DNA from: Burkholderiales bacterium
GTDB lineage: Bacteria; Pseudomonadota; Gammaproteobacteria; Burkholderiales; SG8-39
Direction of reading: 5' to 3'
Length of the DNA: 41,081 bases
Assembly: GCA_023383795.1 (NCBI GenBank)
Contig: JAHDYJ010000019.1
Span: 12,898 to 53,978, forward strand
The notes beneath the pieces were generated by a model. The model saw only the letters and a program-made list of their open reading frames with translations. It ran no database searches and was not told where the DNA came from. The position numbers were made by a program, and so were the translations under genes. This document shows, in pieces, positions 125-13,907 of this stretch; within the stretch, counting starts at the first letter, position 1, and each line of letters begins with the position of its first letter.

Positions 125-604
125 ATGCCGATGGTTCCACTGATCGACTACGCCGAGGCCTCGCCCGAAGTGCGGGCGGTGTACGACGACATCATGGCGA
201 CGCGCAAGACCGACTGGATCAACAATTTCTGGAAGGCGCTCGCGAGCCATCCGCCGACCCTCGCGCGCGTGTGGAACGACGTGAAGCAGGTGATGGGCGC
301 CGGCGGCGCCCTCGACCCGCTGGTGAAGGAGCTCGTCTACGTCGCGGTGAGCGTGACCAACAACTGCGAGTACTGCATTCATTCGCACGCCGCCGCGGCG
401 CGGTCGAAGGGGATGACCGACGCGATGTTCGGCGAGCTGCTCGCCGTGGTCGGCCTCGCGAACGAGACCAATCGTCTCGCGAACGGCTACCGGATCCCGG
501 TCGATCCGCAGTTCGTGCCGCACGCCGGACCGGTCGCCGAGCCGGCCTCGCTCGAGGAGCTCGACTTCACGGAGGCGACCGCAGGGAACGCAACCGGGGA
601 TTGA
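125..604 (+). CDS. AhpD-like / carboxymuconolactone decarboxylase family protein
   Basis: A 159-residue cytoplasmic protein with the AhpD-fold redox motif C81-E-Y-C84 followed by H88 (NNCEYCIHSH). In alkylhydroperoxidase-type members this CxxCxxxH site is a thiol redox or proton-relay centre. The N-terminal half is helical, and the last 30 residues are acidic and probably disordered. The ATG at 125 has GGAGG five bases upstream, which decides the start. It stands alone on the plus strand, converging with the lipoprotein gene that ends at 627. The substrate is unknown. The CxxC argues for a peroxidase or thiol-reductase-like role over a true carboxymuconolactone decarboxylase. Confidence 0.85.
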   Translation: MPMVPLIDYAEASPEVRAVYDDIMATRKTDWINNFWKALASHPPTLARVWNDVKQVMGAGGALDPLVKELVYVAVSVTNNCEYCIHSHAAAARSKGMTDAMFGELLAVVGLANETNRLANGYRIPVDPQFVPHAGPVAEPASLEELDFTEATAGNATGD

Positions 605-626: not shown

Positions 627-1013
627 TCACTTCGCCGGCATCCGGTCGAGCACGCAGCGGATGCCCGGATCGGAGGGCCGGCCGACGAGGATTCCGGTCA
701 CTGATGCGGTCCATGCCTCCCGCGTGATCCTGCCGGCGTAGAGCCGCGACGTCTGGTCGACGAAGTAGCCGCCTTCGCGCGAGCCCGGGCTCGCGATCAG
801 CTGATCGACGGGAGCGGGTCCGATGCGCTGGCCGCGGCAGTCCTGCTGGACCTGCCCGAGGAACGCGTCGAATCCGGGGTCCGGACGCCAGGCGTCGGAC
901 GCGCAGCCCGCGACGGCGAGCGCGACGGCCGCCAGCGCTATCCGGCGGCGCGGCGCACCGCGCACCGCGTTCACGTCTGCCTGCTTCGCGACGTGCACCG
1001 GGCTACTTCGCAT
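627..1013 (-). CDS. small predicted lipoprotein, unknown function
   Basis: A 128-residue protein with a basic N-region (RGAPRRR), a hydrophobic run and the lipobox LAVAGC (Cys37 from the ATG). It is probably lipidated and periplasm-facing. The mature part is about 90 residues and has two cysteines that could pair. I do not recognise the family. The ATG at 1013 overlaps the end of the upstream crotonase-like gene by 11 bases. A GTG at 974 (residue 14) would give a more normal signal peptide and may be the true start. It is the last gene of the leftward CoA-transferase/dioxygenase/crotonase set, although an envelope lipoprotein has no obvious place in that chemistry. Confidence 0.65.
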   Translation of the reverse strand: MRSSPVHVAKQADVNAVRGAPRRRIALAAVALAVAGCASDAWRPDPGFDAFLGQVQQDCRGQRIGPAPVDQLIASPGSREGGYFVDQTSRLYAGRITREAWTASVTGILVGRPSDPGIRCVLDRMPAK

Positions 1014-1725
1014 GGGCCGCGCGATACGTCCGGATGCGGTCCTTCAATCCCGGTGCGGCCACCGAGGCGACGAGGTCGGCCATGTCCTGCGCGCGGGTGT
1101 CGAGGCTGGTGGCGGCGTTCAGGCGCGCCACGGCCTCGGCGCCGAGCGTCGTGGCGCGCTCCCGCTCGGCGAGGATCTCCTCGGCCCAGCGCTCGCGCGG
1201 CGCGCGCCGCTGCGCGAGCCCGATCGAGAGCGCGTGGGGCGCGCTCACCACCTTCGATGCGGCGAGCAGCGCGCGGGCGTGGTCGGCGCCGACGCGGTGC
1301 GCGAGCCGGCGGGTGCCGAGCTGCACGCCGAACTGCAGCCCGGGCAGGCGGAAGGTCGTCTCCGGGGCGGCGATGCGGATGCCGCACGCGGCGAACAGAT
1401 CGACGCCGGCGCCGAAGTTGCGGCCATGCGCGAGCGCGAGCGTGGCGAACGGCGCGTGGTAGACGGCCTGCAGAAGCTGCTCGATACGGACGAAGCGCAG
1501 GACGAGCTCGGCCTCGCTCGCGTTCTCGAAATCGGTGAAATCGAAGCCCGCGGAGAGGTTCTTGCCGGCCCCGGAGAGCACCAGCAGCCGCGTGCCGTCG
1601 CGGTGCGCTTCGGACACGGTGGCGAGCAGCGCCTCGATCAGGTCGGACGACAGCGCGTTCGCCTTGTCCGGCCGGTTAAGCGTGAGCAGCGTGACCGGGC
1701 CGTCACGCTCGACCAGCAGGTCCAT
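1003..1725 (-). CDS. enoyl-CoA hydratase/isomerase (crotonase) family protein, catalytic Glu missing
   Basis: A 240-residue crotonase-fold protein. The N-terminal VTLLTLNRPDKANAL motif and the oxyanion-hole segment GKNLSAGFDF are typical, as is the second oxyanion segment around HGRNFGAGVDL. At the position of the first catalytic Glu of enoyl-CoA hydratase the sequence reads LPGLQFG in place of PE-(I/L)-x-LG. The second Glu (ME in the rat enzyme) reads AR. It should therefore bind an acyl-CoA but probably does not hydrate enoyl-CoA in the standard way. It lies 173 bases downstream of the thiol dioxygenase gene, with a palindromic repeat between, and overlaps the lipoprotein gene. The function is inferred only from fold and context. 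Confidence 0.8.
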   Translation of the reverse strand: MDLLVERDGPVTLLTLNRPDKANALSSDLIEALLATVSEAHRDGTRLLVLSGAGKNLSAGFDFTDFENASEAELVLRFVRIEQLLQAVYHAPFATLALAHGRNFGAGVDLFAACGIRIAAPETTFRLPGLQFGVQLGTRRLAHRVGADHARALLAASKVVSAPHALSIGLAQRRAPRERWAEEILAERERATTLGAEAVARLNAATSLDTRAQDMADLVASVAAPGLKDRIRTYRAAHAK

Positions 1726-1762
1726 CTGGGCAGGCCCTCGAGACGCACATCCGGCAATTGGA

Positions 1763-1790
1763 GCAAGGGGCGGGGCCCTTGCCTATCCCC
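1763..1790 (+). repeat. CAAGGG/CCCTTG palindromic repeat, copy 1 (short form)
   Basis: GCAAGGG (1763-1769) pairs with CCCTTGC (1776-1782), followed by the tail CTATCCCC. It lies in the gap between the dioxygenase and crotonase-like genes, both transcribed leftward. It shares arms and tail with copies at 5502, 9431, 11098, 23226 and 23264. Confidence 0.7.
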
Positions 1791-1898
1791 TTCAGCGCCG
1801 GGACGGAGGCATTCGACACGTTGCCGGCGCGGGCCTCCCGCGCGGAACGCAGTGGCTGTGCATTCGTTGCGGTCGCCGGGGACGGCCCGGGGTCCGGG

Positions 1899-2513
1899 CT
1901 AGGCGCCCGACCGGGCGCGGACCTCCGCCGACCGGTCCCAGAAGTTCGGCAACGTCGCGTTGTGGTATCCGGAAACGAAGCGCGACGCGCGACCGGTCGC
2001 GGGATCGAAGACGTGGCGGGCCACGGCGCCGATGTTCGCGCCGTAGACGTGGATGCTGATCGACGGTCGGTCGGGCAGGGCATTGGCGACGACGTGGATG
2101 TCGCCGACCGTCGGCGAGACCTTGTCGACCTCGCCGGGAGCGACCCGGTGAGCCCCGGTCCGCCGCATCGGCGCCCCGGGTTCGGGCACGGCGTACTCCT
2201 CGCACGTCTCCGCGCCGCGCAGCACGCCGACCATGCCCCAAACGGTGTGGTCGTGCACCGGCGTACGCTGGCCGGGGCCCCACACGAAGCTCACCACCGA
2301 GAAGCGCTCGCGCGGATCGCAGTAGAGGAGATACTGCCGGTACGAGTCGGCGGCCTCGCGCGCGAACGCCTCCGGCAGCCAGTCGTCGTGGCGCACGAGC
2401 TCGGCGAGGAGCGGCGCGCCTTCGGCAAACACCTTGGCCTCGTCGTCGCCGTGCCGGTCGATCACGGCGCTGAACCGGGCGATGAACTCGCGAAACCGGG
2501 CTGCGTCGGTCAT
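1899..2513 (-). CDS. cysteine dioxygenase-family thiol dioxygenase, probably 3-mercaptopropionate dioxygenase type
   Basis: A 204-residue cupin with the mononuclear iron motif PVHDHTVWG (H87, H89) and a third histidine in GDIHVV (H140). The SISIHVYGANIG segment carries the Ser-His-Tyr relay of thiol dioxygenases. The HDHTVWG form, the Gly where mammalian enzymes have the crosslinking Cys, and Gln60 at the position of the substrate-binding Arg are features of the bacterial 'Gln-type' enzymes that prefer 3-mercaptopropionate. The expected product is a sulfinate. The start at 2513 is chosen because its ATG overlaps the TGA of the CoA-transferase (ATGA), which indicates translational coupling. 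The preference for cysteine or 3-mercaptopropionate is an inference from these residues. Confidence 0.85.
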   Translation of the reverse strand: MTDAARFREFIARFSAVIDRHGDDEAKVFAEGAPLLAELVRHDDWLPEAFAREAADSYRQYLLYCDPRERFSVVSFVWGPGQRTPVHDHTVWGMVGVLRGAETCEEYAVPEPGAPMRRTGAHRVAPGEVDKVSPTVGDIHVVANALPDRPSISIHVYGANIGAVARHVFDPATGRASRFVSGYHNATLPNFWDRSAEVRARSGA

Positions 2514-3670
2514 GGCTTCTCTCCCTTGCTGCTCCCGGCGCCGAGCCCGGCGAGCACCTCGTCGGTGTGCTCGCCGAGCGCCGGCGGGTTGCGATAGATC
2601 GCGAATCGCCCGCGACGGCTCGCGAGCGGCGACCCGAAGGTGCGCGTGCGCGCGCCGCCGGGCAGCGTGATCGGCTGCACCCAGCCCATGTGCTCGACCT
2701 GCGGGTCGGCGAGCACCTGGCCGTACGTGTTGATCGGCGCGCACGGCACGCCGAGCCCGCCGAACAGCGCGAGCCAGTGCGCGACCGTCGCGCGCGCGAA
2801 ATCGGCCTCAAGCAGCGCGCGCAGCGCCGCCTGATGCTGCGCGCGCAGCGCGGTGCTGGCAAAGCGCGCGTCGGCCGCGAGATCGGGGCGGCGCATGCCC
2901 TCGCACACCGCGCGCCACAGGCGGTCGTTTCCCGCGGCCATCGCGAAGTAGCCGTCCTGCGCCCGGAACGCCTGGTACGGCGCGTTGCGCGGGTGCGCCG
3001 ATCCGAGCTTCGCAGGGTCGCGGCCGGTGCCGAAGTGCTCGCTCGTCTGCAGCGCGGCGACGCCGAGCGTCGCGCCGAGCATCGAGACGTCGATGTGGTC
3101 GCCACGGCCCTCGCGCTCGGCCGCGCGCAGCGCCGCGACGATCGCGAACGCGGCGTAGAGGCCGGCGCTGAAGTCGGCGATCGGCACGCCGCATTTCACC
3201 GGCGCGCCGCCCGGCTCGCCGGTCACGCTCATCACGCCGCCGATCGCCTGGACCGTGAGATCGAAGCCGCCCTCGCCGGCGCGCGGGCCGGTCTGGCCGT
3301 AGGCCGAGACCGAGCAGTAGACGAGCGCCGGCTTCTCGCGCGCGAGCGCGTCGTAGCCGAGCCCGAGGCGCTCGAGCGTCCCGGGGCGGAAGTTCTCGAT
3401 CACGACGTCGCCCGAGAGGGCGAGCGCGCGCGCCGCCGCGCGCTGCCCGGCGTCCTTGAGATCGAGCACGACCGAGCGCTTGTTGCGGTTGAGGGAGGCG
3501 AAATTCTCGGAGTAGCCGCCGGTGAGCGGCGGCCAGCTGCGCAGCCCGTCGCCGTCGGGCGACTCGACCTTGATCACGTCGGCGCCCAGGTCGGCGAGCA
3601 GCATGCCGCAGAACGGGCCCGCGGCGATCTGGCAGAACTCGATGACCCGGATGCCGGCGAGCGGAAGCAT
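2510..3670 (-). CDS. CaiB/BaiF family III CoA-transferase
   Basis: A 386-residue cytoplasmic protein that begins MLPLAGIRVIEF and continues with AAGPFCGMLLADLGADVIKVE, the usual opening of family III CoA-transferases. The catalytic aspartate lies in GGFDLTVQA, followed by GGVMSVTGEPGGAPVK. Length is typical of the family (about 390-400). ATG 3670 is preferred over upstream starts in the same frame because it begins exactly at the conserved domain. The stop overlaps the thiol dioxygenase start by four bases, so the two products are made together. A sulfinate made by the dioxygenase, such as 3-sulfinopropionate, is a plausible acyl acceptor. Family III members with that activity are known in Burkholderiales. 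Confidence 0.88.
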   Translation of the reverse strand: MLPLAGIRVIEFCQIAAGPFCGMLLADLGADVIKVESPDGDGLRSWPPLTGGYSENFASLNRNKRSVVLDLKDAGQRAAARALALSGDVVIENFRPGTLERLGLGYDALAREKPALVYCSVSAYGQTGPRAGEGGFDLTVQAIGGVMSVTGEPGGAPVKCGVPIADFSAGLYAAFAIVAALRAAEREGRGDHIDVSMLGATLGVAALQTSEHFGTGRDPAKLGSAHPRNAPYQAFRAQDGYFAMAAGNDRLWRAVCEGMRRPDLAADARFASTALRAQHQAALRALLEADFARATVAHWLALFGGLGVPCAPINTYGQVLADPQVEHMGWVQPITLPGGARTRTFGSPLASRRGRFAIYRNPPALGEHTDEVLAGLGAGSSKGEKP

Positions 3671-4351: not shown

Positions 4352-5554
4352 TCAGCGACCGGCGAGCCGCGCCACCATGGCGTTCGAGCCGTCGCGCGTG
4401 CCCTTGTAGCCGAACGCGAACGGCAGCTGCCGGCCGTCGCCGCGCTGGTAGGCCGCCTCGAGCTCGGGCTGGCGGCGCGACGCGAAGAGCGAAATCGGGC
4501 CGGAGTACGCGCCGTAGAGCCGCATGTCCCAGCCCCGCTCGCGCAGGATGCGGTACGGAATGCCGGTGTCGTCCTGCACCAGCGGATCGGCGATCTCGAG
4601 GATGGTCTCGCGCATCCGCGCGAAGCCCGGCTGGTGCAGCAGGTAGGAGGCGGACTTGACGAGCACCGCGGCGGGCCTGAGCGACGCGACGTAGCGCGCG
4701 AGCTGCGGCTGCGCGCGCAGCCCCGCGTCGCTCGCGTCGGCGGAGAAATAGTAGAGCGTCTGCAGCTTGCCGATGTCCGGGTGGTAGAACGCGACGGCGA
4801 CCGAGCGCACCGCCGTCGCCGCGCTGGCGCCGCCGACATCGAATGCGCGGATCGCGACGATGCGCGCGCGGATCGCGCCCATCGAGGCCGCGAGGACCGG
4901 CAGGACGCCGCGGATGCGCGGCGTGTCGAGCTGCGCGGCCATGTTGTTGGTCATGAAGAAGTTGAGCGCCAGGAGGTCGCCGAGCGCGGCCCGCATGTCG
5001 TGCAGGGTCTGCGCGACCTCGCGCCGCGGCATGCGGTCGAGCTCCGGCAGCGCGCCCGGCGGCTCGAGGCCGATGAAGACGTAGGTGTCGCACAGCGGGA
5101 ACAGCAGGTACGCGTTCAGGAAATCCGGGCCGCTGAACGGGTAGAAGAGGGTGCGGCAGCGCGGGTGCTCGGCGGCGAGCGCCTCGTCGCGCCAGGCCTC
5201 CAGCGCCCGCAGGCGGCCCGCGCGCAGCCTCTGCCAACGCGGGGCGAGCCAGTCGCGGTGCGCCTGCCAGGCTCGATCGCTTGCGAGCGGCGCGTGCAGC
5301 GCGTAGTCGGGGGCGATTCCCCCGAGCATGCGCGCGATCGAGGTGACCCGCGGATCGAACGGCAGGTCGTCGGCGGCGCAGGCGGGCGCGGCGGGCAGGG
5401 CCGCGCCGGCGAGCGCGAGGGCAAGCGCGACGAGATGGCCGGACGCAGCGCGGGCGAGCCCGGGGAACCTCCGCGAGACCGCGCTCGCGCGCGGTCGGGA
5501 CGGGAGGATCGCGCAGGGGCCCGTAGGCCCCTTTCGCAGGGTCTCCCCGGTCAC
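4352..5554 (-). CDS. secreted protein of unknown function
   Basis: A protein of about 400 residues whose GTG start (5554-5552) overlaps the TGA of the upstream Bug/TctC gene (GTGA). An unusually long basic N-region of about 37 residues precedes a hydrophobic signal core (VALALALAGAALPAAPACAA). No other ATG, GTG or TTG lies in frame between 5554 and the signal core. The mature part has recognisable blocks such as LFYPFSGPDFLNAYLLFP, MTNNMAAQLDTPRIRG and YYFSADASD, suggesting a conserved but uncharacterised periplasmic family that I cannot name. The first 20 codons coincide with a palindromic repeat (5502-5537) and a GACCGCGC/GCGCGGTC hairpin, so the long N-region may be acquired sequence. It is last in the leftward box transcription unit. 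Confidence 0.75.
   Translation of the reverse strand: MTGETLRKGPTGPCAILPSRPRASAVSRRFPGLARAASGHLVALALALAGAALPAAPACAADDLPFDPRVTSIARMLGGIAPDYALHAPLASDRAWQAHRDWLAPRWQRLRAGRLRALEAWRDEALAAEHPRCRTLFYPFSGPDFLNAYLLFPLCDTYVFIGLEPPGALPELDRMPRREVAQTLHDMRAALGDLLALNFFMTNNMAAQLDTPRIRGVLPVLAASMGAIRARIVAIRAFDVGGASAATAVRSVAVAFYHPDIGKLQTLYYFSADASDAGLRAQPQLARYVASLRPAAVLVKSASYLLHQPGFARMRETILEIADPLVQDDTGIPYRILRERGWDMRLYGAYSGPISLFASRRQPELEAAYQRGDGRQLPFAFGYKGTRDGSNAMVARLAGR
5502..5537 (-). repeat. CAAGGGG-type palindromic repeat, divergent copy inside a coding start
   Basis: On the minus strand AGGGGCC (5526-5532) and GGCCCCT (5515-5521) form a stem with a four-base loop. The tail GCGCGATCCTCCC resembles the CAGATCCTCC tail of the copy at 9431. 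It overlaps the first codons of the secreted-protein gene. It is the least conserved copy, and membership of the family is tentative. Confidence 0.45.
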
Positions 5555-6510
5555 TGCGCCTTCAGGCCGGAGGCCTTGGCCGCAGCGCTCCATTTCGCGA
5601 GCTCCGCCGCGAGCTCGGCGCCGAGCGCGTCGGGCGTGCTGTAGGTCGCGCTCGCGCCCTGCTTCACGAAACTGTCGAGCACGTCCCTCGCGCTCAGCGT
5701 GCCCTTCAGCGCCTCGTTCAGCTTCGCGATCGCCGCCGCCGGCGTGCCGGCCGGCGCGATCAGGAAGAGCCGCGGCGAGGCGTCGAACCCGGGAAACGTG
5801 TCGGCGAGCGCCGCCCAGCCGGGCGCATCGGCAAGCTTCATCGGGCTCGTCAGGCCGATCGGGCGGAGCCTGCCGCCGCGCGCCTGCGCCAGCGCCGGCG
5901 AGGCGCTCATGATCGCTAGCGGGATCTGCCCGCTGACGATGTCGGGAATGATCGGCGAGGCGCCCTTGTACGGCACGTGCACCACGTCGACACCGGCCCG
6001 GCTCTTGAACAGCTCGAACGCGAGGTGGTGCACCGTGCCGAACCCCGGCGAGCCGTAGCTGTACTTGCCGGGGTGGGCCTTCAGGAGCGCGATCAGCTCG
6101 GCCGCGTTCTGCGCCGGGACCGCGGGATTGGCCATGATCGCGAGCGGCAGCGTGCAGGCGCCGCCGACCGGCGCGAAGCTCTTCAGCGGATCGTAAGTCA
6201 CTCTCGCGTACACGCTCGGCGCGATCAGGATCGACGTGTCGGCGAAGTAGGTCGTGTAGCCGTCGGGGGCGGCCTTGGCGAGCGCGTCGGCGGCGAGCGT
6301 CCCGCCGGCGCCGGGGCGGTTCTCGACGACGATCTGCTGGCCGAGGAGCTCGCCCATCCTGCCGGCGACGATGCGCGCGAGCGTGTCGGCGCCGCCGCCC
6401 GCCGAGAAGCCGACGAGCATGCGCACCGGCTTGGTCGGGTAGTCCTGCGCGACCGCCGGGATCGGCAGCGCGGCGAGCGCGGCGAGCGCCGCGCGGAGCA
6501 GGCGTTTCAT
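5551..6510 (-). CDS. Bug/TctC-family periplasmic solute-binding protein
   Basis: A 319-residue protein with a Sec signal peptide (MKRLLRAALAALAALPIPAVAQ) and the family opening YPTKPVRMLVGFSAGGGADTLAR. Further markers are VVENRPGAGG and VVHVPYKGASP. Length matches the family. The ATG at 6510 has GGAGGAG upstream. Bug proteins bind small carboxylates, including aromatic acids, and are very abundant in Burkholderiales. They often occur without their TctA/TctB permeases, which are also absent here. Lying downstream of the second boxB, it may capture an aromatic acid. This is inferred from position. Confidence 0.9.
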   Translation of the reverse strand: MKRLLRAALAALAALPIPAVAQDYPTKPVRMLVGFSAGGGADTLARIVAGRMGELLGQQIVVENRPGAGGTLAADALAKAAPDGYTTYFADTSILIAPSVYARVTYDPLKSFAPVGGACTLPLAIMANPAVPAQNAAELIALLKAHPGKYSYGSPGFGTVHHLAFELFKSRAGVDVVHVPYKGASPIIPDIVSGQIPLAIMSASPALAQARGGRLRPIGLTSPMKLADAPGWAALADTFPGFDASPRLFLIAPAGTPAAAIAKLNEALKGTLSARDVLDSFVKQGASATYSTPDALGAELAAELAKWSAAAKASGLKAQ

Positions 6511-6625
6511 GGGCTCCTCCTCGTTGCGTGACCGCGGACCGCGGCGGGCGCCGCGGCGGGGCGTTCATTAGGCCGCAACGCACGGGCGCTGGCAAGCGGC
6601 GGCGCGGCGTGCGCCGGCACGGCGG

Positions 6626-6645
6626 ATCCCCGCCTTCGCGGGGAT
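6626..6645. repeat. REP-like hairpin (second type)
   Basis: ATCCCCGC (6626-6633) and GCGGGGAT (6638-6645) form a perfect eight-base stem with a CTTC loop, in the 171-base gap between the boxB paralogue and the Bug gene. No T-tract follows on either strand. It resembles extragenic hairpins of the CCCGCxTTCGCGGG type common in proteobacteria and could stabilise the upstream message end. Confidence 0.55.
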
Positions 6646-6681
6646 GGCCCCGCGCGGGCGGCGCCGCCGCGCGACGCGAGG

Positions 6682-8106
6682 TCAGCCTAGCCGGACGTAC
6701 TCGTACTCGACCGGGAGGTTGTTGATGCCGCGGTCGGGCGGCGCGATCCAGCCGGCCATCTTCCCGGGCTCGCGGACCGGCTGCATCAGGCTGCGCACGA
6801 ACGCGCGGTCGGACTCGCTCGGCAGCGAGGCCGGAAGCTGCCGCTCGTACGCCTCGCGCGAGATCGGCGTGCCGCCCGGGTCGGTCGGAACGCCGGCCCA
6901 GGCGCCGATCGAGCGCCGGAACCGGGTCGAGGGCAGCGCGAGCTGGAAGTCGACGCCGGCGCGCTTGATCGCCATGTTCCAGCGCTTGACGCCGATCTCG
7001 CAGTCCCTGACGTAGGCGCTGCGCGCGATCTCGTTCATGGCGTTGCGCATCGGGACCGTGTCGGTGGCGACGCCGCCCTTGCCGTCCGGCACGTCGAGCG
7101 CGAAGGTCGCGTCCGCGCAGACGTGGTCCTCGTATTGCGACTCGTCCGGCCGGCCTTTGATGCCGTTCGCGAAAGTGGTCGCGGCGTTCGACGAGACCTC
7201 CGAGCCGAAGAGATCCAGCGAGGACGTGAACCAGAAGTTGAGATAGCGCTGCAGCGTCGGCAGGTCGACCGCGCCGTGCCGGCGGATCGCCTCGGGATTG
7301 TCGGTGCCGAGTTCCTTCATCACCTCGAGCGTGCGCCGGATCACGCGGGCAATGCCGGTCTCGCCGACGAACATGTGGTGCGCCTCCTCGGTCAGCATGA
7401 ACCGGCAGGTGCGCGCGAGCGGATCGAACGAGGACTCGGCGAGGCTCTTCAGCTGGAACTTGCCGTCGCGGTCGGTGAAGTAGGTGAACATGTAGAACGA
7501 CAGCCAGTCGCTGATCGGCTCGTTGAACGTGCCGAGGATGCGCGGCTTGTCGGCGTCGCCCGAGTGGCGCGCGAGCAGCTCCTCTGCCTCCTCGCGGCCG
7601 TCGCGGCCGAAATAGGCGTGCAGGAGGTAGACCATCGCCCACAGGTGGCGGCCTTCCTCGACGTTCACCTGGAACAGGTTGCGCAGGTCGTAGAGCGACG
7701 GGCAGGTGTGCCCGAGCAGGTGCTGCTGCTCGACCGACGCGGGCTCGGTGTCGCCCTGCGTCACGATCAGGCGGCGGAACTGCGAGCGGAACTCGCCGGG
7801 CACCTGCTGCCACACCGGCTGGCCGAAGGCGTCGCCGAAGCCGATCTTGCGGTCGGGGATCGCGTCGGCGAGGAAGATCCCCCAGCGGTAGTCGGGCATC
7901 TTCACGTAGCCGTAGCTCGCCCAGCCCTGTGCGTCGACGCCGACTGCGGTGCGCAGGTAGACGTCGTTCGCCTCGAAGTCGTGCGGCCCGAGCTCGCGCC
8001 ACCACTCGAGGAACCTCGGCTGCCAGTGCTCGAGCGCCCGCTGCAGCGTCCGGTCGTTCGCGAGGTTGACGTTGTTCGGGATGCGCTCCGAGTAGTTGAT
8101 GCTCAT
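6682..8106 (-). CDS. boxB: BoxB paralogue: benzoyl-CoA 2,3-epoxidase oxygenase component (second copy)
   Basis: A 474-residue soluble diiron oxygenase of the BoxB family. Ligand-bearing segments are intact: [10 protein letters not shown] (E121), [10 protein letters not shown] (E151, H154), TDRDGK (D211 region) and LTEEAHHMFVG (E240, H243). It matches the other BoxB at 9547 closely over the first 250 residues (about two thirds identical by eye). It diverges in the C-terminal third, where it has ARSAYVRDCEIGVKRWN in place of [17 protein letters not shown] and a different lid-like insertion. The ATG has AGGAG five bases upstream. It starts 34 bases after boxA, so one BoxA reductase could serve both oxygenases. 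It may act on a substituted benzoyl-CoA or be a redundant copy. The sequence cannot decide. Confidence 0.93.
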   Translation of the reverse strand: MSINYSERIPNNVNLANDRTLQRALEHWQPRFLEWWRELGPHDFEANDVYLRTAVGVDAQGWASYGYVKMPDYRWGIFLADAIPDRKIGFGDAFGQPVWQQVPGEFRSQFRRLIVTQGDTEPASVEQQHLLGHTCPSLYDLRNLFQVNVEEGRHLWAMVYLLHAYFGRDGREEAEELLARHSGDADKPRILGTFNEPISDWLSFYMFTYFTDRDGKFQLKSLAESSFDPLARTCRFMLTEEAHHMFVGETGIARVIRRTLEVMKELGTDNPEAIRRHGAVDLPTLQRYLNFWFTSSLDLFGSEVSSNAATTFANGIKGRPDESQYEDHVCADATFALDVPDGKGGVATDTVPMRNAMNEIARSAYVRDCEIGVKRWNMAIKRAGVDFQLALPSTRFRRSIGAWAGVPTDPGGTPISREAYERQLPASLPSESDRAFVRSLMQPVREPGKMAGWIAPPDRGINNLPVEYEYVRLG

Positions 8107-8140
8107 GCAGGCTCCTGATGAGATGTCTTCTTGTGCCGGT

Positions 8141-9361
8141 CTAGTACGTCTCGACGTGGTAGCGGCTCTGCGCGCGCAGCTGCGGGAGCAGGCCGTCCCA
8201 GTCGACGCCGTGCGCGCGGCAGGCGTCGGCGAAGGCCTCCTCGACGCCTTTCTCCATGCCCTTGAGGCCGCAGATGTAGATGTAGCAGTTCCCGTCGGCC
8301 AGCAGCCGCGCCACCTTGTCGCCGCGCGCGCGGATCATGTCCTGAACGTACTGCTTCGGCTTCTCCGGCACGCGCGAGAACGCCAGATTGATGTCGATGA
8401 AGTCCTTCGGCAGCTTCATCAGCGGACCGAAGTAGGGCAGCTCGCCCGGCGTGCGCGCGCCGAAGAAGAGCATCAGGTCGCCGCCCTCCTTGAGCGCGAT
8501 GCGGCGCCTGCGCCGCTCGGTCATCGCGCGCATCGGCGCCGAGCCGGTGCCGGTGCAGATCATCATGATCGACGAGCCCGGATGGTTCGGCATCAGGAAC
8601 GTCGCGCCGTACGGCCCGACGATCTTCACCTGGTCGCCCTTCCTCAGGTCGCACAGGAAGTTCGAGGCGACGCCGCGCACCGGCCTGCCGTCGCGGTCCT
8701 CGGTCACCCGCTTCACCGTGATCGACAGATTGTTGTAGCCGGGGCGCTCGCCGTTGCGCGGGCTCGCGACCGAGTACAGCCGCACGTGGTGCGGCTTGCC
8801 GTTCGCGTCCTCGCCCGGCGGGATCACGCCGATCGACTGCCCCTCGAGCACCGGGAACGCGGTGTTGCCGAAGTCGAGCACGATGTGGTGGATCTCGCTC
8901 GAGGTGTCCTCCGCGGTGAGGCGGAAGTTCCCGGTGCAGGTCGCCACCGCCGGACGGGCGAGGCCGTAGAGGTTGAGGTAGGGATGCGCCGCCGACCACG
9001 GCGGCGCGACCTGGCCGCCCTGGCCGGCGGTCGCCTCCGCCGTGATGCGGACGACGTCCTCGGGCGTGTCCGCCGCGCCGCCCGCATCGACCTCGGTCTC
9101 CGGCGGCAGCTCATCCCAGCCGAACTGCTCCTCGAGCGTGTAGGGCTTGTCCTTCGCGACCCGCCGCCAGCTGTCGATCGCGCCGGTGGGGCAGGGCGCG
9201 ATGCACTGGTTGCAGCCTTCGCATACCTCGAACTTGACGACGTAGTTGCGCGAGTCGTGCGTGATCGCGTCGATCGGGCACGTCTCCTCGCAGGTGTTGC
9301 ACCGGATGCAGATCTCCGGGTCGATCAGGTGCTGGCGGACGAGTTCGGTCGGAGCGTTCAT
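8141..9361 (-). CDS. boxA: BoxA: benzoyl-CoA 2,3-epoxidase reductase component
   Basis: A 406-residue cytoplasmic flavo-iron-sulfur protein that passes NADPH electrons to BoxB. The N-terminus carries two ferredoxin-type [4Fe-4S] motifs: C18-xx-C21-xx-C24-xxx-C28-P and C47-xx-C50-xx-C53-xxx-C57-P. An FNR-like FAD/NADPH module follows, with RLYSVAS (FAD binding), [10 protein letters not shown] and [10 protein letters not shown] (nucleotide). The C-terminal YHVETY ending is typical. The ATG at 9361 is set by the start of the conserved MNAP segment. The first 46 bases of this gene are duplicated at 9498-9543 just after boxB, so boxB and boxA are separated by an unusual 185-base spacer. Its ribosome-binding site is weak (GAG about 13 bases upstream). 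Confidence 0.95.
9316..9361 (-). repeat. 46-bp direct repeat, copy 2 (start of boxA)
   Basis: These are the first 15 codons of boxA. They match 9498-9543 with a single mismatch (T for C at codon 5). The 18-base core 9320-9337 can also pair with the inverted segment 9404-9420. Confidence 0.9.
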
Positions 9362-9403
9362 GGTGCGATCACTCAACGCGAGCCTTGGGTCACCGTCGTC
9401 GCA

Positions 9404-9420
9404 CGCCAGCACCTGTCGAC
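9404..9420 (-). repeat. inverted copy of the boxA codon 9-14 segment
   Basis: This 17-base segment is the reverse complement of the 18-base core at 9320-9337 and at 9502-9519 except for one missing base. In the leftward transcript it can pair either with the upstream copy or with the start of boxA, giving two exclusive hairpins with loops of about 81 and 66 bases. Confidence 0.75.
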
Positions 9421-9430
9421 TGGCTTGGAG

Positions 9431-9494
9431 GATCTGCAAGGGGCGGGGAAGGGGTGGAACCCTTCCCGTCCCACCTCGGCCCCCTTGTGCGATC
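9431..9494 (-). repeat. CAAGGGG/CCCCTTG palindromic repeat, long form
   Basis: The outer arms CAAGGGG (9437-9443) and CCCCTTG (9481-9487) enclose an inner perfect stem GGGAAGGG (9446-9453) with CCCTTCCC (9460-9467). Read on the minus strand it ends CCCCTTGCAGATCCTCC. It is clearly homologous to the copy at 23264, which shares the CAAGGGGGCC-GAGG start and the inner GAAGG/CCTTC arms. Confidence 0.75.
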
Positions 9495-9497
9495 GGG

Positions 9498-9543
9498 CCG
9501 GGTCGATCAGGTGCTGGCGGACGAGTTCGGCCGGAGCGTTCAT
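9498..9543 (-). repeat. 46-bp direct repeat, copy 1 (upstream of boxA)
   Basis: This is a 45-of-46 match to the boxA start at 9316-9361. It sits directly after the boxB stop codon. The spacing looks like an original boxB-boxA junction, with boxA once beginning here. Confidence 0.9.
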
Positions 9544-9546
9544 CGA

Positions 9547-10974
<1,428 letters not shown>

Positions 10975-10989
10975 TGACTGCTCCGGTGT

Positions 10990-11045
10990 GTGAATCGTTG
11001 ATCGTGAAGCGCTGAACGTTGAGCGTTGAGCGTTAGGCGTTAGGC
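10990..11045 (-). repeat. degenerate heptamer tandem array upstream of boxB
   Basis: Eight consecutive seven-base units on the plus strand: GTGAATC, GTTGATC, GTGAAGC, GCTGAAC, GTTGAGC twice, GTTAGGC twice. The consensus is near GTTGAGC. The array lies in the leader between boxC and boxB, ending 15 bases before the boxB start codon and just upstream of its ribosome-binding site. Confidence 0.8.
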
Positions 11046-11097
11046 ATGGGCCGGCGCCCGCAGGTGGCGTAGCGAGCGACCCTGCCTGCGCGCCGCC

Positions 11098-11127
11098 GGG
11101 GACATCGCAAGGGGGAATCCCCCTTGC
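11098..11127 (-). repeat. CAAGGGG/CCCCTTG palindromic repeat, boxC-boxB gap
   Basis: A perfect nine-base stem GCAAGGGGG (11107-11115) with CCCCCTTGC (11119-11127) and loop AAT. Read on the minus strand the tail GATGTCCCC follows, as in the other family members. It lies between boxC and boxB, where it could act as an RNA-stabilising or processing hairpin. There is no T-tract. Confidence 0.75.
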
Positions 11128-11200
11128 TCGTACGACCGGGCTTGCGCCGCAGTGCCGCGCCCGTCACCGCAGCGGCCATCGCCGGCGCTCTCGCTGCCTG

Positions 11201-12886
11201 CTATACGCGCTCCCAGTTGAACTTGGCCTTGGCGCCCTTGCCGAACACCTTCAGCGCGCCTTCCTCGCCGACCGCGTTCGGCCGATTGAAGATCCAGTTC
11301 TGCCACGCGGTCAGCCGGCCGAAGATGCGCGTCTCCATCGTCTCGGCGACCGGGAACCGGAGGTTCGCCTCGAGGCCGGTCAGGGCATCCGGCGACTGGC
11401 TGGCGCGCTCCTCGATCGCGATGCGCACTTCGTCCTCCCAGTCGAGGTCGTCGGGCGTGAACGTGACCAGCCCCAGCCCGGCGGCGGCCTCGGCGGCGAG
11501 CGGCTCGCCGACGTGCTTGCGGGCGGCGTCCACCGGCGCCTGCTCGCCGCAGAAGCGGGTCTGGATGCGGGTCCAGCCGTTCACCATCGGGTAGGCGCCG
11601 AAGTTCGCCTCCGAGAGCACGATCCTCGGCGCGGCCGCGGCGTCGTCGGGCAGGTGCAGCATGTAGCTGCGGTCGGCGGCGAGCGCAAGCTCGGCGAGCG
11701 TGCCGGCGAAGCACGACTCCTGGTCGACGACGGCGTAGATCGTGCGCGGCGAGACGTCGAGCCGCGCGAGCGTCCGTCGCAGCATGCCGATCGTCTCGTT
11801 GACGAACCAGTCTCTCGCGTTGGCCGCGAGCACCTTGTCAACGGCGAGCACCGCGCCCGCGTCGCCGCGCGTCTTCAGCAGCCACGTGCCGATCTCGAGA
11901 TCGTTCGTGCGCAGCATCAGGATGGCGTCGTCGAGCTCGCGCGCCATCGCGAGCGGCCACCAGGCCATGCCGGCCGCGTGGATGCCGTCGAGGCCGGACG
12001 GCTGCGCCTGCGCCGGCCCCTTCACGGTGATCGTCACGGTGCGTGCGGCACGGTCGATCCGCGCATCGACGTGCTCGTAGTGGTAGCCGGCGTCGTCGAT
12101 CCTGCGCTGGAGCGGCGTCAGGGCGATGCCCTTGCCGCCGGCGCGTCCGCTCGCCCTCGTCAGCCGGTCGACGTGCTCCTTGACCGCCTGCGCCCAGCCC
12201 TGCGGCTTCGCGACGTGGTCGACCAGGTTCCACTGCTTGGCGCGTTCGGCGCGCACGCCCTCGGTCGTGGTGCAGAAGAAGTCGGCGAGATCGCGCCGCA
12301 CCTTGCGCTTGTCGGTCACGCGGGTGAGGCCGCCGGTGCCGGGCAGCACCCCGAGCAGCGGCACCTCGGGCAGGCTGACCGCGGACGAGCGGTCGTCGAT
12401 CATCAGGATCTCGTCGCAGGCGAGCGCGAGCTCGTAGCCGCCGCCGGCCACCGCGCCGTTGACCGCGGCGAGGAAGCGCAGGCCCGAGTGGCGGCTGGAA
12501 TCCTCGATCCCGTTGCGCGTCTCGTTGGTGAACTTGCAGAAGTTCACCTTCCACGAGTGCGGCGAGAGGCCGAGCATGTAGATGTTCGCGCCGGAGCAGA
12601 ACATGCGCTCCTTGGCGCTGGTGAGCACGACGACCTTCACCTCCGGGTGCTCGAAGCGGATGCGCTGCAGGGCATCGTGCAGCTCGATGTCGACGCCGAG
12701 GTCGTAGGAATTGAGCTTCAGCCGGTAGCCCGGGCGCAAGCCCTTTTCCTCGTTCACGTCCATCGACAGCGTCGCGACCGGCCCGTCGAACGAGAGGCGC
12801 CAGTGCGCGTACTTCTCGGGGTGGGTGTCGTAGGTGACGAGGGCCTTCGCTTCCCCGCCGGCAGTCTGCTCGAGAACCGCGCTCAT
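11201..12886 (-). CDS. boxC: BoxC: 2,3-epoxybenzoyl-CoA dihydrolase
   Basis: A 561-residue crotonase-superfamily enzyme that opens the epoxide ring hydrolytically, releasing formate and 3,4-dehydroadipyl-CoA semialdehyde. The N-terminal crotonase domain has the oxyanion segments ERMFCSGANIYMLG and VNGAVAGGGYELALACDEI plus the active-site stretch SLPEVPLLGVLPGTGGLTR. The C-terminal half is the BoxC-specific extension, ending FNWERV. Size matches the family (about 550-560). AAGGAGAAGGAG lies just upstream of the ATG. boxR ends 31 bases before it, so boxR and boxC probably share a transcript. Confidence 0.95.
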   Translation of the reverse strand: MSAVLEQTAGGEAKALVTYDTHPEKYAHWRLSFDGPVATLSMDVNEEKGLRPGYRLKLNSYDLGVDIELHDALQRIRFEHPEVKVVVLTSAKERMFCSGANIYMLGLSPHSWKVNFCKFTNETRNGIEDSSRHSGLRFLAAVNGAVAGGGYELALACDEILMIDDRSSAVSLPEVPLLGVLPGTGGLTRVTDKRKVRRDLADFFCTTTEGVRAERAKQWNLVDHVAKPQGWAQAVKEHVDRLTRASGRAGGKGIALTPLQRRIDDAGYHYEHVDARIDRAARTVTITVKGPAQAQPSGLDGIHAAGMAWWPLAMARELDDAILMLRTNDLEIGTWLLKTRGDAGAVLAVDKVLAANARDWFVNETIGMLRRTLARLDVSPRTIYAVVDQESCFAGTLAELALAADRSYMLHLPDDAAAAPRIVLSEANFGAYPMVNGWTRIQTRFCGEQAPVDAARKHVGEPLAAEAAAGLGLVTFTPDDLDWEDEVRIAIEERASQSPDALTGLEANLRFPVAETMETRIFGRLTAWQNWIFNRPNAVGEEGALKVFGKGAKAKFNWERV

Positions 12887-12917: not shown

Positions 12918-13826
12918 TCAGGCCAGCACCGCGCGCCGCAGGTTCCCCAGGCTCTCCTCGATCGTCCGCCCGGCGGTGTCCACCGTGCGATCGGCCTGGC
13001 CGTAGAGCGCCGCGCGACCGTGCAGGATGCGCCGCAGGTCTTCCATCGCCGCGTCGTTGCCGGCCATCGGCCGGTAGTCGCCCTGCGCGGCGACGCGGTG
13101 CATGTGCTCCTCGGGCGCGGCCTTGAGCCACACCGTGAAGCAGGTCGAGAGCAGCAGATCGTAGGTCCCCGGCTCCGAGACGATGCTGCCGCCGGCGGCG
13201 ATCACGCACGGGGTGCCGCGCTCGAGGATCCGCTCGAGCGCGCGGCGCTCGTAGCGGCGGTAGCCGGTCTGCCCGTGCAGCAGGAAGACCTCGTGCAGGC
13301 TGGTGCCGGCGTCGGCCTCGATCTCGCGGTCGAGCTCGATGAACGGCACGCCGAGCTCGGCGGCGAGCCGCGCGCCGAGCGTCGACTTCCCGGCGCCGCG
13401 CAGCCCGATCAGCGCGAAGCGCTTGCGCCGGTCGGCCGCCGCGGCGCCGTAGTCCTTGATGAGTTGCGTGCGGAGCTCCGCGAGCTTCTCCTGCGGCAGC
13501 CGCTTGAGGAACTGCTGGGTGAGCACAAGCTCGACAGAGTGCTCGCCCTCGTCGCGCAGCAGGTCGGCGAGCGGCAGGCCGAGCGCCTGGCCGATCTGCC
13601 GCAGGACCAGGATCGACGTGTTGCCCTGGCCGGCCTCGAGCTGCGCGAGATAGCGCTCGGAGACCCCGGAGTCGCGCGCCAGGAGCTTGCGGGTCATGCC
13701 GCGCCGCGCGCGCGCCTCGCGCACGCGCTCGCCGAGGCGCTGCAGGAACTCCGCGTCCTGCGGTTCGCGGACCGCCGATTCGGCGGCCTTGCGCGCGAGG
13801 CGTTGCGGCGCGACCGGGGCGCCCAT
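12918..13826 (-). CDS. boxR: BoxR: benzoyl-CoA-responsive repressor (XRE HTH plus shikimate kinase-like domain)
   Basis: A cytoplasmic two-domain regulator. From ATG 13826 it has 302 residues, the BoxR length. Residues 27-92 are an XRE-type helix-turn-helix (LARDSGVSERYLAQLEAGQGNTS). A linker follows, then a shikimate kinase-like domain with P-loop GLRGAGKST (141-149), which in BoxR/BzdR binds benzoyl-CoA. An in-frame ATG at 13880 exists, but 13826 has AGGAG 11 bases upstream and the better family length. The promoter and operator at 13924-13955 suit either start. It should repress both divergent units until benzoyl-CoA appears. Confidence 0.93.
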   Translation of the reverse strand: MGAPVAPQRLARKAAESAVREPQDAEFLQRLGERVREARARRGMTRKLLARDSGVSERYLAQLEAGQGNTSILVLRQIGQALGLPLADLLRDEGEHSVELVLTQQFLKRLPQEKLAELRTQLIKDYGAAAADRRKRFALIGLRGAGKSTLGARLAAELGVPFIELDREIEADAGTSLHEVFLLHGQTGYRRYERRALERILERGTPCVIAAGGSIVSEPGTYDLLLSTCFTVWLKAAPEEHMHRVAAQGDYRPMAGNDAAMEDLRRILHGRAALYGQADRTVDTAGRTIEESLGNLRRAVLA

Positions 13827-13907
13827 CGTGTCTTGATCTCCTGGTGCTTGCACTCTAGCCTCTCCGGCGGCGTTCGCCATCAGGAAGAACTAGGTGAACT
13901 ATACTGC

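Follow-up and report, generated by a model that had tools for sequence, protein, structure and literature searches.

The window analysed here is a stretch of 41,081 nucleotides from a Burkholderiales bacterium (assembly GCA_023383795.1, contig JAHDYJ010000019.1, positions 12,898 to 53,978), and the subject is a set of three consecutive genes on its minus strand, comprising (i) a family III coenzyme A (CoA) transferase gene (2510..3670 (-), 386 amino acids from the ATG), (ii) the gene of a Gln-type thiol dioxygenase of the 3-mercaptopropionate dioxygenase (3MDO) family (1899..2513 (-), 204 amino acids), and (iii) a crotonase-fold gene of the subfamily to which PDB entry 3isa belongs (1003..1725 (-), 240 amino acids). 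Direct reading of the sequence discloses an ATGA at 2513-2510 (2510..2513 (-)), in which the transferase stop (TGA) and the dioxygenase start (ATG) overlap; the first-pass annotation had described the two genes as fused by this motif, and the overlap is genuine, the genes being overlapping and not fused. A further 173 bases separate the dioxygenase stop from the crotonase start. The three-gene arrangement recurs across several families and in Alphaproteobacteria, and with high confidence the three genes form a true, conserved module.

The crotonase-fold protein matches ECH_1 (PF00378) with 87.4 bits, placing it in the crotonase superfamily. Its predicted model (predicted local distance difference test, pLDDT, 94.8) superposes on 3isa with a TM score of 0.97, and 3isa is also the closest solved chain (E 2e-62, 50% identity, Z 39.1, root mean square deviation 1.0 over 239 residues), the next PDB entry reaching a Z of only 30.1. 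A profile of eight members retrieves the subfamily from 49 of the 399 Burkholderiales genomes that make up the co-occurrence sample, at no less than 207 bits, with every other match among those listed at 125 bits or below, so that the subfamily is sharply bounded. Comparison with the 3-hydroxypropionyl-CoA dehydratase 5zai highlights an altered active site: the two catalytic Glu (Glu144 and Glu164 of the rat enzyme) are replaced by Asp109 and Gly129, and the Gly adjoining the second Glu is replaced by Arg126. The window protein is therefore no canonical enoyl-CoA hydratase by its catalytic residues, in agreement with the earlier description of this crotonase as unusual. Across 33 aligned subfamily members, Asp109, Gly129 and Arg126 never vary. 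Compared with 43 control crotonases, which are weaker matches of the same scan and not a random sample, one type dominating them (26 with Phe at 126, 27 with Val at 129), the subfamily is set apart by Arg126 (36/36 aligned members against 0/43), Phe61 (37/37 against 0/43), Asp109 (37/37 against 6/43), and Gly129 (35/35 aligned members against 4/43). To judge from the alignment, Arg126 probably lies in the active-site pocket.

The dioxygenase matches CDO_I (PF05995) with 27.9 bits, and its four top-scoring PDB matches are all Gln-type enzymes, namely 6xb9, 4qma, 3uss/4tlf, and 4wvz (226-237 bits; E 3e-66 to 1e-69), with cysteine and mercaptosuccinate dioxygenases far behind at about 1e-6. The key residues of the Azotobacter 3MDO are Gln63, His90, His92, His142, His157, Tyr159, Arg168, and the Ser of the Ser-His-Tyr motif (PMC8050391). 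All of them have a counterpart in the window protein (Q60, H87, H89, H140, H155, Y157, R166, and S153), with Q60 aligned to Gln63 and R166 to Arg168, so that the three His iron ligands, the Ser-His-Tyr motif, Gln at the place of Arg60, and the equivalent of Arg168 are all present and the Gln-type assignment of the first-pass annotation stands. Of 67 dioxygenase rows, including three PDB chains and the window protein itself, all retain the His ligands, His155, and the substrate-carboxylate Arg166, whereas 66 retain Ser153 and Tyr157 and 59 retain Gln60. In the dioxygenase tree, calculated after removal of three dioxygenase-like rows of at most 120 bits, a 99/93 branch separates 12 rows from the rest, comprising the three solved chains, a desulfinase-linked protein from Diaphorobacter, and four crotonase-linked rows (L127, L130, L250, and L251) among others; the window protein lies opposite, together with the other 33 crotonase-linked rows. 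The window enzyme is clearly a Gln-type 3MDO homologue; because the tree splits the solved chains from it, its substrate can be named only as most likely a small mercapto-carboxylic acid, with 3-mercaptopropionate the foremost candidate. Thioglycolate and other α-mercapto acids are not mentioned as 3MDO substrates in two 3MDO papers searched for those words. The host genome encodes one close 3MDO homologue only, the next homologues being at most 34% identical. Two same-family genomes display two dioxygenase copies close together (L049, 8634-11494, and L051, 8494-10109), the second 49-51% identical to that of the window, and at L185 (7503-8706), in a near relative with a crotonase ~85% identical, only two weak dioxygenase fragments are seen and the crotonase is split over two overlapping frames, owing to decay or to sequencing error.

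Membership of the window transferase in family III is certain from PF02515 (430.6 bits), and Asp166, presumably the counterpart of Frc Asp169, is invariant in 7 transferases. Among the NCBIfam models no equivalog cut-off is reached, the highest score being 331.6 bits for succinate--glutarate CoA-transferase, whose cut-off is 750. The transferase tree comprises 86 rows, those shorter than 270 residues having been left out, and the window protein falls within a 62-row clade (100/100, stem 1.06) in which every row comes from crotonase or dioxygenase loci; the clade represents 53 distinct genes, since 9 rows repeat in incomplete form genes that it contains elsewhere. Three Act-like proteins form a separate clade (100/99) near 4ed9. 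The Act-like reference is a plasmid row of transferase, annotated 3-sulfinopropanoyl-CoA desulfinase, and dioxygenase from Diaphorobacter sp. HDW4B, whose desulfinase reaches 706 bits against 5af7 and 659 bits against NF042439; the comparison with Act thus rests on desulfinase-linked relatives, the Act of Variovorax paradoxus TBEA6 being absent from the tree. Within that scope, identity of the window transferase with Act is not borne out, and the phylogeny suggested as a check goes against the earlier reading. As for other CoA-transferases, the window protein joins neither human SUGCT nor 4ed9, the only characterised or solved references of the tree, and formyl- and carnitine-CoA transferases were compared by NCBIfam only. 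The proposal that the pair performs the first two steps of 3-mercaptopropionate breakdown hence finds support in the dioxygenase, a 3MDO homologue, and in the conserved unit that it forms with the transferase, but not in the phylogeny of the transferase, which does not group with the Act-like proteins.

The co-inheritance of the three genes was assessed with protein searches in which only the best first-look candidates were scored, up to seven per genome for crotonase and dioxygenase and up to four for desulfinase and transferase. From the protein rows collected for the alignments and trees, matches that contained a stop, duplicated another row, or were short were removed. The dioxygenase is present in 73 of 399 genomes (E up to 1e-50) and the transferase clade in 37 (one partial match at 455 bits, the other 36 no lower than 545, and the next match at 413). 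Crotonase and dioxygenase occur together in 42 genomes (9.0 expected), crotonase and transferase clade in 35 (4.5 expected), transferase and dioxygenase in 33 (6.8 expected), and all three in 32. The crotonase noted earlier as following the pair is accordingly a conserved partner and belongs to the module with the transferase and the dioxygenase. At 44 loci found with the crotonase profile, both partners lie within 7 kb in 19 and the dioxygenase only in 3; for the full set of 94 loci, which includes some found via the dioxygenase and some taken twice, the corresponding figures are 26 with both, 26 with the transferase only, 14 with the dioxygenase only, and 28 with neither. In these 7-kb tallies L184 and L188, where the transferase is outside the clade, count as without transferase; at least five locus pairs represent one contig taken twice (L044/L170, L106/L177, L101/L182, L128/L196, and L111/L180), and some loci end at contig edges. 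Four-base overlaps link transferase and dioxygenase (window and L107), dioxygenase and crotonase (L048 and L250), and transferase and crotonase (L172 and L257).

The window operon contains no acyl-CoA dehydrogenase-like desulfinase (Acd) over the NF042439 cut-off, and none lies near; the host's acyl-CoA dehydrogenases find no match in the dioxygenase/crotonase loci L036-L143, L115 excepted. The absence of the known desulfinase, as first proposed, is therefore true of the neighbourhood and false of the genome: on another host contig, C222 (L266), an Act-like gene (8451-9767) stands beside a desulfinase gene (9787-10998) whose product scores 641.6 bits against a curated cut-off of 600. Contamination is unlikely, the tetranucleotide correlation of C222 with the window being 0.992, similar to that between the window's two 20 kb end stretches. 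The C222 region (4429-12613) comprises TRAP-type transporter genes, a LysR gene, the Act-like transferase, Acd, and an acetolactate-synthase-like thiamine pyrophosphate enzyme, which brings to mind the act, acdA, and ilvX cluster of TBEA6. NF042439 was searched in 51 genomes, the 49 with the crotonase and two others, and its cut-off is passed in the host (G000), G017, and G298, hence in 1/49 crotonase genomes; G016 has two matches at 474-476 bits and all other crotonase genomes stay at or below 314 bits. A desulfinase protein search at E 1e-80 finds the same four of 399 genomes, the two G016 proteins being 44-45% identical. Acd is thus nearly absent from the genomes that carry the crotonase.

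We infer the substrate, the order of the steps, and the reaction of the crotonase as follows. The module would serve the catabolism of a small mercapto-carboxylic acid, with 3-mercaptopropionate the most likely. Oxidation of the thiol by the dioxygenase would give a sulfinate, whose carboxylate would receive CoA from a donor CoA ester through the family III transferase, and the crotonase would act on the sulfino-acyl-CoA, most likely breaking the C-S bond to yield sulfite and an ordinary acyl-CoA, which could donate its CoA for the next round. Two forms of the last step may be envisaged, (i) desulfination of 3-sulfinopropionyl-CoA, in which Arg126 would bind the sulfinate, Asp109 would serve as acid/base, and the β carbanion would be unstabilised, and (ii) removal of sulfur from the α carbon, given a 2-mercapto acid as substrate, in which case the enzyme might work like methylmalonyl-CoA decarboxylase, itself a crotonase. 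The complete sequence from thiol to sulfinate, CoA thioester, and C-S cleavage is plausible at somewhat less than an even chance, and C-S cleavage by the crotonase, taken by itself, is about as probable or slightly less so; the crotonase may instead catalyse hydrolysis or hydration. The broader idea of an Acd-independent, flavin-free desulfinase of crotonase fold (the 3isa subfamily), acting on sulfino-acyl-CoA, common in Burkholderiales and present in Alphaproteobacteria, is offered tentatively.

The transferase and crotonase also occur in other company. Class I CoA-transferase subunits accompany them in 12 loci (L103, L104, L106, L108, L110, L116, L117, L127, L171, L172, L177, and L181, each with a subunit pair), the nearest solved structures being the glutaconate CoA-transferase family 5mzw and then 6con, and an acyl-CoA synthetase accompanies them in 8. 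A VanA-type Rieske oxygenase is found with them in 8 loci, comprising L187, L255, L256, and L257, where a VanB-type reductase is also present and both lie upstream of transferase and crotonase, and L140, L199, L202, and L205. In Paraburkholderia graminis an S-(hydroxymethyl)glutathione dehydrogenase gene lies downstream of the VanA/VanB-type genes, transferase, and crotonase; perhaps a VanA/VanB-type demethylation feeds the same module.

Several observations weigh against the proposed route from thiol to C-S cleavage. The Fisher values for the gene pairs, 1e-23 to 1e-36, ignore relatedness and are hence overstated; the dioxygenase is absent from 7/49 crotonase genomes and the transferase clade from 14/49, and 30 of the 73 dioxygenase genomes have neither crotonase nor transferase clade. 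Among the 44 crotonase-profile loci, 11 display neither partner within 7 kb and another 11 the transferase only, a Rieske oxygenase standing in place of the thiol dioxygenase at some of these partner-poor loci, and the same-family loci L037-L039 show transferase and dioxygenase with no crotonase in the stretch examined. The chemistry is also easier with sulfur on the α carbon, because the carbanion left when SO2 departs from the β carbon gains no stabilisation from the thioester. These variable contexts lend weight to another explanation, a serious if tentative one, in which transferase and crotonase form a general CoA-ester module, for instance a hydratase, hydrolase, or C-C cleaving system, fed by different oxygenases and sparing the sulfur. 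It accommodates the VanA/VanB-type loci (L187, L255-L257), the class I CoA-transferase and acyl-CoA synthetase neighbours, and the crotonase that adjoins box genes by itself in the host's own family (L100, L101, and L173-L175); moreover, for VPARA_05510, the crotonase family protein of the TBEA6 cluster, whose deletion lowered growth on thiodipropionate, the authors suggest hydrolysis of 3-hydroxypropionyl-CoA (PMC6370202). It fits less well with the presence of the dioxygenase in 42/49 crotonase genomes, and with its staying near the transferase/crotonase pair, though not adjoining it, at L116, L117, L124, and L127.

The C222 cluster raises a different prospect, and the host's own possession of Act-like and Acd genes itself counts against a crotonase desulfinase: the window dioxygenase would make 3-sulfinopropionate, the Act-like transferase and Acd of C222 would complete the canonical route in trans, and the window transferase and crotonase would serve a side substrate. 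The desulfinase score, the base composition that C222 shares with the window, and the single close 3MDO homologue of the host agree with it; yet this route is open to the host alone, since 48/49 crotonase genomes lack a desulfinase over the cut-off (G016, with its two matches below it, included), and it leaves the conserved linkage of the crotonase unexplained; we regard it as unlikely. An accidental neighbourhood, with the crotonase outside any pathway shared with the transferase and dioxygenase, could draw on the host's own family, where crotonase and dioxygenase each adjoin box genes with the other two members missing; it is disfavoured by four-base overlaps across families and classes and is very improbable, chance being excluded because several families, and Alphaproteobacteria too, show the arrangement again and the co-occurrence far exceeds expectation. 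The proposed thiol-to-sulfite route is thus retained as the working account, and the first-pass reading as a whole is partly supported.

Around the module, the window displays an AhpD/CMD-type protein gene (125-604 (+)) and a TctC receptor gene (5551-6510 (-)), and further away a boxB-like gene (6682-8106 (-)), present in 11/23 stretches of the host's family (L036-L056, L064, and L066; that of L037 only 45% identical), where box genes of the aerobic benzoyl-CoA pathway are frequent neighbours of the dioxygenase, and a gene (12918-13880 (-)) in which a helix-turn-helix domain is fused to a shikimate-kinase domain, a combination also seen in the BoxR regulator. At 4/94 loci (L138, L172, L194, and L200) there is a YeiH-type putative sulfate exporter (PF03601; below the TIGR00698 cut-off), few cases that hint at sulfite disposal. 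The quinone oxidoreductase gene found downstream in f46 genomes is probably a housekeeping neighbour and was not counted with the module.

The third gene may encode a sulfur-removing step of a kind so far unrecognised. If the proposal is true, a crotonase partner would explain how many dioxygenase genomes finish the pathway without the known desulfinase (73/399 against 4 at E 1e-80), the orphan structure 3isa would gain a function, and C-S cleavage would be added to the known crotonase reactions. No account of a dioxygenase/transferase/crotonase unit was found in the literature searched by titles and abstract openings.

Among known systems, 3isa from Bordetella parapertussis, deposited as a putative enoyl-CoA hydratase/isomerase, shows no family-level difference from the window crotonase. 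E. coli ScpB, the methylmalonyl-CoA decarboxylase, and ScpC form a crotonase/CoA-transferase pair that removes a small acid anhydride, CO2, from an acyl-CoA, as proposed for the module; there, however, CO2 leaves the α carbon, no thiol dioxygenase takes part, and the active-site residues are different. The Diaphorobacter sp. HDW4B plasmid cluster shares with the window the dioxygenase family and the logic of thiol to sulfinate to CoA ester, and differs in carrying an acyl-CoA dehydrogenase-like desulfinase where the window has the crotonase and a transferase from the Act-like clade. In Advenella, an AhpD-domain gene and two TctC genes adjoin mdo (PMC5373536), a likeness to the window's flanks that may be coincidence. 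The same text credits SucCD with 3-sulfinopropionate activation, even though the cluster contains a family III transferase gene, and the TBEA6 study names SucCD or the family III transferase Act (PMC6370202); in this detail the earlier account, which gave the step to a family III transferase in both organisms, is inaccurate. Variovorax paradoxus TBEA6 (Mdo, Act, AcdA) has in common with the window the family of its thiol dioxygenase, a CoA-transferase of family III, a TctC-type receptor nearby, and a crotonase family gene in the cluster, whereas the window transferase falls outside the clade of the Act-like proteins tested and its operon is devoid of Acd.

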